Positions 28,566 to 29,469 of a stretch of DNA of 64,000 nucleotides are shown piece after piece. Under the pieces are notes generated by a model. That model saw only the letters and a program-made list of their open reading frames with translations. It was not told where the DNA came from and ran no database searches. This stretch comes from Sphingomonadaceae bacterium. Its GTDB lineage: Bacteria; Pseudomonadota; Alphaproteobacteria; Sphingomonadales; Sphingomonadaceae. Location of the stretch: the NCBI GenBank assembly GCA_020850455.1, contig JADZEQ010000012.1, positions 1 through 64,000 of the forward strand, read 5' to 3'. The stretch's first letter is position 1. Every line of letters starts with the position of its first letter. The position numbers were made by a program, and so were the translations under genes.

Positions 28566-28697
28566 TTATCCTACCAAATGGCTGGCAACCGCAATTTGCG
28601 GGGCAGCGGTTGAAGCGAAAATCATCGCGGTGGAAACCAGCGCCACGGCGGCGGCGGTGGCGTAGCTGGTGGCGGCGCGGAAATCGAAGCTGGTCAT
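28566..28697 (-). CDS. 43-aa membrane microprotein, paralog 1 (sORF1)
   Basis: MTSFDFRAATSYATAAAVALVSTAMIFASTAAPQIAVASHLVG; purine-rich SD GAAGGAAG; paralogous to 29176-29307 and 29338-29469. Confidence 0.8.
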   Translation of the reverse strand: MTSFDFRAATSYATAAAVALVSTAMIFASTAAPQIAVASHLVG

Positions 28698-28743
28698 ATT
28701 ATCTTCCTTCATATGCGGGCTGTGTGCCGGATATCTCAAGTAT

Positions 28744-28760
28744 TGCAGGAAGCGTGCCAA
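28744..28760 (-). promoter_or_regulatory. Sigma54 (-24/-12) promoter for cassette 1
   Basis: Minus-strand TTGGCACGCTTCCTGCA vs consensus TGGCACG-N4-TTGCW; located 47 nt upstream of sORF1 ATG. Confidence 0.75.
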
Positions 28761-28906
28761 ATTTGAAAATGGCGAAAAAGCGTAACTTTTCGAGATGCTG
28801 CTGTCGCCTAGATTGTGTAAAATACTAACTCGATACATATGAAGCCATGATTTGGGAATTTTCACCAGCAAGATCCCGCCGGTGAATTTTTCCTGTCGTC
28901 AAAAGC

Positions 28907-28938
28907 AAAGACCCCGCCGATGGAACGGCAGGGCCTTT
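28907..28938 (-). terminator. Intrinsic terminator after pspC-like gene 2
   Basis: Minus strand AAAGGCCCTGCCG TTCCAT CGGCGGGGTCTTT followed by GCTTTTGAC. Confidence 0.75.
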
Positions 28939-28962
28939 CGCTTTATCTGGAAAATCAAATGG

Positions 28963-29172
28963 TCAGTCGGCGATCAGGGCAATGGCGAAATAGATTAGCG
29001 CAATTTGTCCGGCGAACAGCGTGCCGACTAGAAATGCGATGCGTATCCACATCGGGTCAACGCCAAAATATTGGCCAATCCCCGAACAGACGCCCAGCAA
29101 TTTGCGGTTGGCGTGGTCGCGGCGAAAGCGGCGTATGGTTGTGGCGGCTGCGGCCGATTGGGTCGTGGCCAT
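28963..29172 (-). CDS. PspC domain-containing microprotein (cassette 2)
   Basis: MATTQSAAAATTIRRFRRDHANRKLLGVCSGIGQYFGVDPMWIRIAFLVGTLFAGQIALIYFAIALIAD; paralog of 28341-28562. Confidence 0.9.
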   Translation of the reverse strand: MATTQSAAAATTIRRFRRDHANRKLLGVCSGIGQYFGVDPMWIRIAFLVGTLFAGQIALIYFAIALIAD

Positions 29173-29175
29173 GGT

Positions 29176-29307
29176 TCAGGCGACCAGCGGCGCGCTGATG
29201 GCAAAGGCAGCGGCGTGGGTTGCGCCGAACAGCATCGCGGTGGCGACCAAGGCGGTGGCGCTGGCGGTGAGGTAGCTGGCGGCGGCGTTGAGATCAAACT
29301 TGCGCAT
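29176..29307 (-). CDS. 43-aa membrane microprotein, paralog 2 (sORF2)
   Basis: MRKFDLNAAASYLTASATALVATAMLFGATHAAAFAISAPLVA (own translation; below ORF-track cutoff); stop is 3 nt before the PspC ATG. Confidence 0.78.
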   Translation of the reverse strand: MRKFDLNAAASYLTASATALVATAMLFGATHAAAFAISAPLVA

Positions 29308-29337
29308 GAGGATGTTCCTTTTGGGGTGGGGAGCTGA

Positions 29338-29469
29338 TTAGGCAAAGGCCGGAGTGGCGAGCGCGATGACGGGGGCGTTGACCGCGCCAAAGATCATCAC
29401 GGTGGAAATCAGGGCAACGACAGCGGCGGTGGCGTAGCTGGTGGCGGATTGGATATCGAACTTGGTCAT
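29338..29469 (-). CDS. 43-aa membrane microprotein, paralog 3 (sORF3)
   Basis: MTKFDIQSATSYATAAVVALISTVMIFGAVNAPVIALATPAFA; SD AAGGAGA; start refined from the longer ORF 29338-29532, whose 5' part overlaps the sigma54 promoter. Confidence 0.8.
   Translation of the reverse strand: MTKFDIQSATSYATAAVVALISTVMIFGAVNAPVIALATPAFA

Follow-up and report, generated by a model that had tools for sequence, protein, structure and literature searches.

Conserved single-helix microproteins encoded with mini-PspC genes in sphingomonads: a likely accessory arm of the phage-shock response

Introduction

Three short minus-strand ORFs, referred to in the following as s1, s2 and s3, lie close together within the window, by which we mean the whole 64,000-nt stretch of DNA that was analyzed. 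A preliminary description presented their products as a new family of exactly 43-residue single-helix microproteins with three paralogs. The locus raises the question of whether such short ORFs are real genes and, if so, how they are regulated, how widely they occur and what their products might do. The surroundings of the ORFs point to the phage-shock (Psp) envelope-stress regulon. The known targets of PspF in E. coli are the pspA operon and, beyond it, only pspG, whose role is unclear (PMC9239133).

The three ORFs are conserved genes

The translations of s1, s2 and s3 (Table 1) matched those previously quoted exactly. The proteins aligned without gaps, with 15 invariant columns and with 58% and 47% identity to the first sequence, and each ORF was preceded by a purine-rich Shine–Dalgarno (SD) site. 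As described, the ORF list carried s1 and s3 with over-extended starts (101 and 64 aa, respectively, both from TTG). The reported absence of s2 from that list could not be reproduced, since s2 was present at its correct 43 aa.

Homologs in related Sphingomonadales and a dN/dS ratio not near 1 had been named among the checks on the proposal, and both were found. A small-protein homolog was present in 77 of 80 same-genus genomes (69 of the 70 good ones), and the nearest relative likewise carried three copies (G361). Against this relative, dN/dS was 0.35 for s3, 0.11 for s2 and 0 for s1, the s1 protein being identical although dS was 0.20. Pooled genus pairs gave values of 0.21 and 0.25. Homologs in nearly all same-genus genomes, together with dN/dS ratios between 0 and 0.35, show that the three ORFs did not arise by chance and support purifying selection.

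The family itself is real, with a single helix, three paralogs in the window and no family model that fits, but a length of exactly 43 aa is not one of its traits. A uniform 43 aa was limited to this species and the relative closest to it; lengths of 37, 42, 43 and 44 aa occurred in the genus, so 43 cannot be a family constant, and the family as a whole ranged from ≈33 to 54 aa, with 37 and 39 aa the commonest. Similarly, the proposed motif F-D-x-x-x-A-x-S-Y held at the level of the genus, whereas other genera had the pattern R-x-x-A-A...A-I-[IV]-P-A-S-P instead.

Two units, each ending in a mini-PspC gene

The preliminary description did not include the two mini-PspC genes, the two sigma-54 promoters or the PspF-type upstream motif at this locus, and it therefore missed the link to the Psp regulon. 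The genes form two units, A (s3-s2-pspC1) and B (s1-pspC2), in a block flanked by recF and a convergent rpoC. Mini-PspC 1 starts 3 nt past the s2 stop codon, and mini-PspC 2 starts 3 nt past that of s1. Scored against the full-length PspC model TIGR02978 (121 positions), the two proteins reached 54.5 and 48.3 bits, respectively, below the cut-off of 104. Their dN/dS ratios versus the nearest relative were 0.18 and 0.04. The weak hairpin between the units is consistent with two transcription units, as far as a consensus match can indicate. None of the plasmid records searched carried the mini-PspC. We also observed that units A and B (28341–29469 of the window) resemble a duplication, having gene order, an identical promoter core and the upstream motif all in common.

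Table 1. Positions of genes and predicted regulatory elements within the window.
Feature	Position	Strand	Basis
Unit A, gene 1: s3, small protein of 43 aa (MTKFDIQSATSYATAAVVALISTVMIFGAVNAPVIALATPAFA)	29338..29469	-	ORF; same-genus homologs; dN/dS; AlphaFold
Unit A, gene 2: s2, small protein of 43 aa	29176..29307	-	ORF; dN/dS
Mini-PspC 1, 69 aa, PspC domain only	28963..29172	-	Pfam PspC PF04024, E=1.3e-19
Unit B, gene 1: s1, small protein of 43 aa	28566..28697	-	ORF; dN/dS
Mini-PspC 2, 73 aa, PspC domain only	28341..28562	-	Pfam PspC PF04024, E=1e-17
Unit A: sigma-54 -24/-12 promoter (TGGCACGCTTCCTGCA)	29516..29531	-	Pattern match; element also present at 77 of 78 related loci
Unit B: sigma-54 -24/-12 promoter, 16-mer identical to that of unit A (TGGCACGCTTCCTGCA)	28744..28759	-	Pattern match
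Unit A: PspF-type candidate upstream activating site (TGGTGAAAATTTCACA), distance to -24 element 110 bp	29626..29641		Motif match
Unit B: PspF-type candidate upstream activating site (TGGTGAAAATTCCCAA), distance to -24 element 108 bp	28852..28867		Motif match
Weak terminator-like hairpin between units A and B	28914..28928	-	Consensus match only
Strong terminator-like hairpin after unit B, at end of convergent rpoC	28234..28267		15 pairs

Sigma-54 promoters and an upstream motif in common with pspA

The genome has a canonical Psp system. PspF scored 467.6 bits against TIGR02974 (cut-off 443.55), and its gene is divergent from pspA-pspB-pspC, with a sigma-54 site in between. PspA was above its cut-off and PspB above that of TIGR02976; PspC of this operon had the PspC domain and reached 97 of the 104 bits required by the full-length model. 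Six strong matches to sigma-54 activators in the genome imply the presence of rpoN. Behind the canonical pspC lie two ORFs of 93 and 110 aa (L022:502-783 and L022:146-478, both on the minus strand); they matched no Pfam family, and each has one N-terminal hydrophobic helix, a build like that of PspB.

The two promoters in Table 1 were the only stringent sigma-54 matches in the window, where 0.21 were expected, and the genome total was nine. A 16-nt upstream motif was derived by eye from four distinct pspA promoters (from this and three other genomes) when the window units had already been seen, so only tests on other loci are independent; the 0.03 matches expected by chance in the window refer to a pattern fitted to these two sites. 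Among the nine stringent sigma-54 sites of the genome, only those of pspA and the two units had an upstream-motif score of at least 12/14, and the remaining six scored 11/14 or less. Unit A had a second, weaker match at 29605–29620. The distance from motif to -24 element is 108–110 bp in this genome versus ≈90 bp elsewhere, which counts against control by PspF.

The genes, their conservation and order, the predicted promoters and the upstream motif in common are established at the level of sequence, and on these grounds the predicted regulation by PspF and sigma-54 is strongly supported.

Distribution in the family

A profile built from the three window proteins alone hit 29 of 301 genomes, mostly as noise, and gave a misleadingly narrow range. 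The apparent restriction of a genus profile to one genus was overturned by walking upstream of mini-PspC hits, and the mini-PspC genes of other genera had at least one similarly built ORF in front. With a combined profile, small proteins were found in 57 of 151 family genomes and 39 of 96 genera, a count that takes in a few weak hits near E=0.01 and leaves out divergent members. Among the 42 genomes with strong hits, 40 had a PspC domain downstream on the same strand, located 33–90 nt past the last small ORF in 38 genomes and 203–204 nt past it in two that have a weaker third copy in the gap. The search of 289 genomes of the class gave no match outside the family at E≤0.001, and we therefore claim no wider distribution.

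Within the genus, a mini-PspC gene was found downstream at all 29 loci that were read, and a sigma-54 element fitting the strict pattern was present 62–73 nt before the start codon at 25 of them. We also collected 79 mini-PspC database loci from Erythrobacter, Qipengyuania, Altererythrobacter, Porphyrobacter, Novosphingobium, Tsuneonella, Pelagerythrobacter, Pontixanthobacter and unclassified MAGs. At least one small ORF preceded the mini-PspC gene at 75 of these loci: the filter counted one ORF at 22, two at 42, three at 11 and none at 4. At three loci (L213, L255 and L259) the third ORF was a spurious frame inside PspC, leaving 8 true triples and 45 doubles. A near-perfect sigma-54 element was present at 77 of 78 mini-PspC loci, usually 70–80 nt before the first ORF. 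The upstream motif scored at least 11/14 in 58 of 72 non-redundant unit promoters, and in 44 of the 72 it was positioned at 88–92 bp, versus 0.2% in shuffled sequences.

Some units stand alone, with a sigma-54 element and two tandem small proteins and no PspC behind them (L270, G093:C2:389500-392700; L273, G510; L274, G179); of these, only L270 had a good upstream motif (12/14 at 90 bp). Ten of the 151 genomes had no PspA, and the same ten had neither PspC nor a small-protein match, which suggests loss of the whole system in some genera. The co-occurrence of PspA and the small proteins gave a Fisher p=0.014, with phylogeny ignored. In one genome (G256), small-protein matches appeared at both ends of two contigs (C1:20-112, C1:2095858-2095950, C2:30-128 and C2:978939-979037), as if the contig ends were repeated or the assembly had broken in a duplicated copy.

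Build of the small proteins

The build was surveyed in 139 small proteins from loci L191–L269 and the window. All 139 had an 18-residue uncharged core with a mean hydropathy above 1.6, preceded by an N-terminal tail of ≈11 residues that usually contains one basic and one acidic residue. The C-terminal tail was mostly uncharged, with Ala as the last residue, following a hydrophobic one, in 127 of the 139. By hydropathy, every protein thus has the single uncharged hydrophobic helix of ≈18 or more residues taken to mark a single-pass membrane protein, and insertion is predicted. AlphaFold gave one helix for s3 (residues 6–42, mean pLDDT 75), which adds little because it is expected for such a sequence.

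No family in Pfam, NCBIfam or the PDB fitted the small proteins, and nothing scored above chance. Hits to DUF4134, PhrC_PhrF, cytochrome b559 beta and NuoH (PDB) were judged to be chance matches from their scores and their support by one or two members. The PspB profile PF06667 matched neither the window proteins nor any of 27 family members. Homology between the proteins of this genus and those of the AIVPASP type is likely (hhalign E=9e-5, probability 59%), with the reservation that Ala-rich helices could align by composition.

Possible role and rival explanations

Taken together, we consider it likely that the small proteins are single-pass inner-membrane microproteins induced by PspF and sigma-54, which would form, with mini-PspC, an accessory arm of the Psp response in sphingomonads. 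The reading of an accessory arm is drawn by analogy with the control of the pspA operon and pspG by PspF in E. coli. From the sequence data we infer PspF binding, induction by stress, membrane insertion, an N-in topology, contact with partners and a protective or anchoring role. In the proposed sequence of events, envelope stress would free PspF from PspA, and PspF bound to the upstream motif would activate sigma-54 polymerase at both promoters. One message would then yield one to three small proteins together with mini-PspC. Once in the membrane, the Ala/Ser-rich helices would probably associate among themselves and with those of mini-PspC, and would either shore up the membrane where it is damaged or tether Psp proteins to it. 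Such helices suggest close packing, making small oligomers or contact with mini-PspC plausible; units without PspC exist, so this contact would not be obligatory. The N-in orientation is suggested solely by the one basic residue before the core.

The activator might be another sigma-54 activator than PspF, given that the genome has six strong matches to such proteins and that PspF binding is something we infer, but the upstream motif is common to the pspA promoter and falls below 12 at the six other stringent sigma-54 sites, and we regard this as improbable. Still less credible is that the small ORFs are leader peptides whose sole job is translational coupling to mini-PspC. The start of mini-PspC 3 nt past the small-ORF stop in the window fits such coupling, but it is the amino acid sequence itself that is conserved (dN/dS 0–0.35), the tandem ORFs, one to three in number, are divergent and carry separate SDs, and stand-alone sigma-54 units occur without PspC. 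The size, the single helix and the stress-linked promoter would also suit a hydrophobic toxin-like peptide (a type I toxin or YohP-like) that depolarizes the membrane and slows growth under stress. A precedent is YohP, a small membrane protein of E. coli with one helix, which lowers the proton motive force and raises PspA and PspC (PMC12719787). A toxin is nevertheless doubtful at best, because the locus is chromosomal and fixed in almost every species of the genus, tandem copies share one unit with mini-PspC, and the C-terminal tail is uncharged, whereas small stress-linked membrane helices are described as frequently having positive charges on their flanks (PMC12719787).

The small proteins could instead be signal regulators that, like PspB, hold or release PspC or PspA and are not effectors themselves. 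PspB, too, is a small partner of PspC with a single transmembrane helix, the PspC domain is kept in mini-PspC, and the neighborhood is constant. Against this, the proteins do not match the PspB family and are missing its charged cytoplasmic region, PspB itself is encoded in the canonical operon of this genome, and units without PspC occur. We therefore take regulation to be a possible but rather unlikely function. Within the reading as an accessory Psp arm, a role of the small proteins as effectors or anchors is about an even call, and helices this simple do not allow protecting, anchoring and signaling to be told apart from sequence.

Relation to known systems

Like PspG of E. coli, the proteins are small predicted membrane proteins encoded in a separate unit of the PspF/sigma-54 type away from the pspA operon (PMC9239133), and they would work like PspG without being members of its family. 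Unlike PspG, they are tandem, lie beside a PspC-domain gene and match no family, no Pfam or NCBIfam profile scoring above chance. PspG is also about twice as long. With PspB (PF06667) they have in common a short length, one transmembrane helix, predicted here, near the N-terminus and a gene adjoining PspC; they differ in giving no PF06667 match and in the absence of a charged cytoplasmic region, and true PspB is encoded elsewhere in the genome. A PspC domain (PF04024/TIGR02978) is clearly encoded by the downstream gene, which unlike PspC consists of that domain only, with about 57–75 aa and 48–54 bits versus the 104-bit full-length cut-off.

LiaI of Bacillus subtilis, which anchors the PspA homolog LiaH (PMC9239133), resembles the present proteins by description, as a membrane protein of small size that is produced together with a Psp-type system; a corresponding anchoring is hypothesized here. 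YohP and other small stress-induced membrane proteins are similar in having fewer than 50 aa, one helix and a link to stress (PMC12719787). They have no known link to sigma-54, PspF or PspC genes, and their charge pattern differs.

The main text of two recent Psp surveys makes no mention of sphingomonads or of small-protein partners (PMC9239133, PMC11237479), and no description of the family was found in the part of the open-access literature that was covered. We lean slightly towards an undescribed Psp branch of extra PspF-controlled operons, consisting mainly of arrays of one to three single-helix proteins with a usual but dispensable mini-PspC, the products serving as membrane-repair or anchoring peptides. 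A whole bacterial family has further PspF-type units, built from proteins of ≈55 residues or fewer, which match no Pfam or NCBIfam profile and are short enough for annotation to miss. They offer a convenient model in which to study how very small helices aid a membrane under stress, and the combination of sigma-54 element and upstream motif provides a search key for more such genes.

The nonpolar C-termini of 127 of the 139 small proteins also look like established LAA-like tags for proteases, which makes rapid turnover a possibility.
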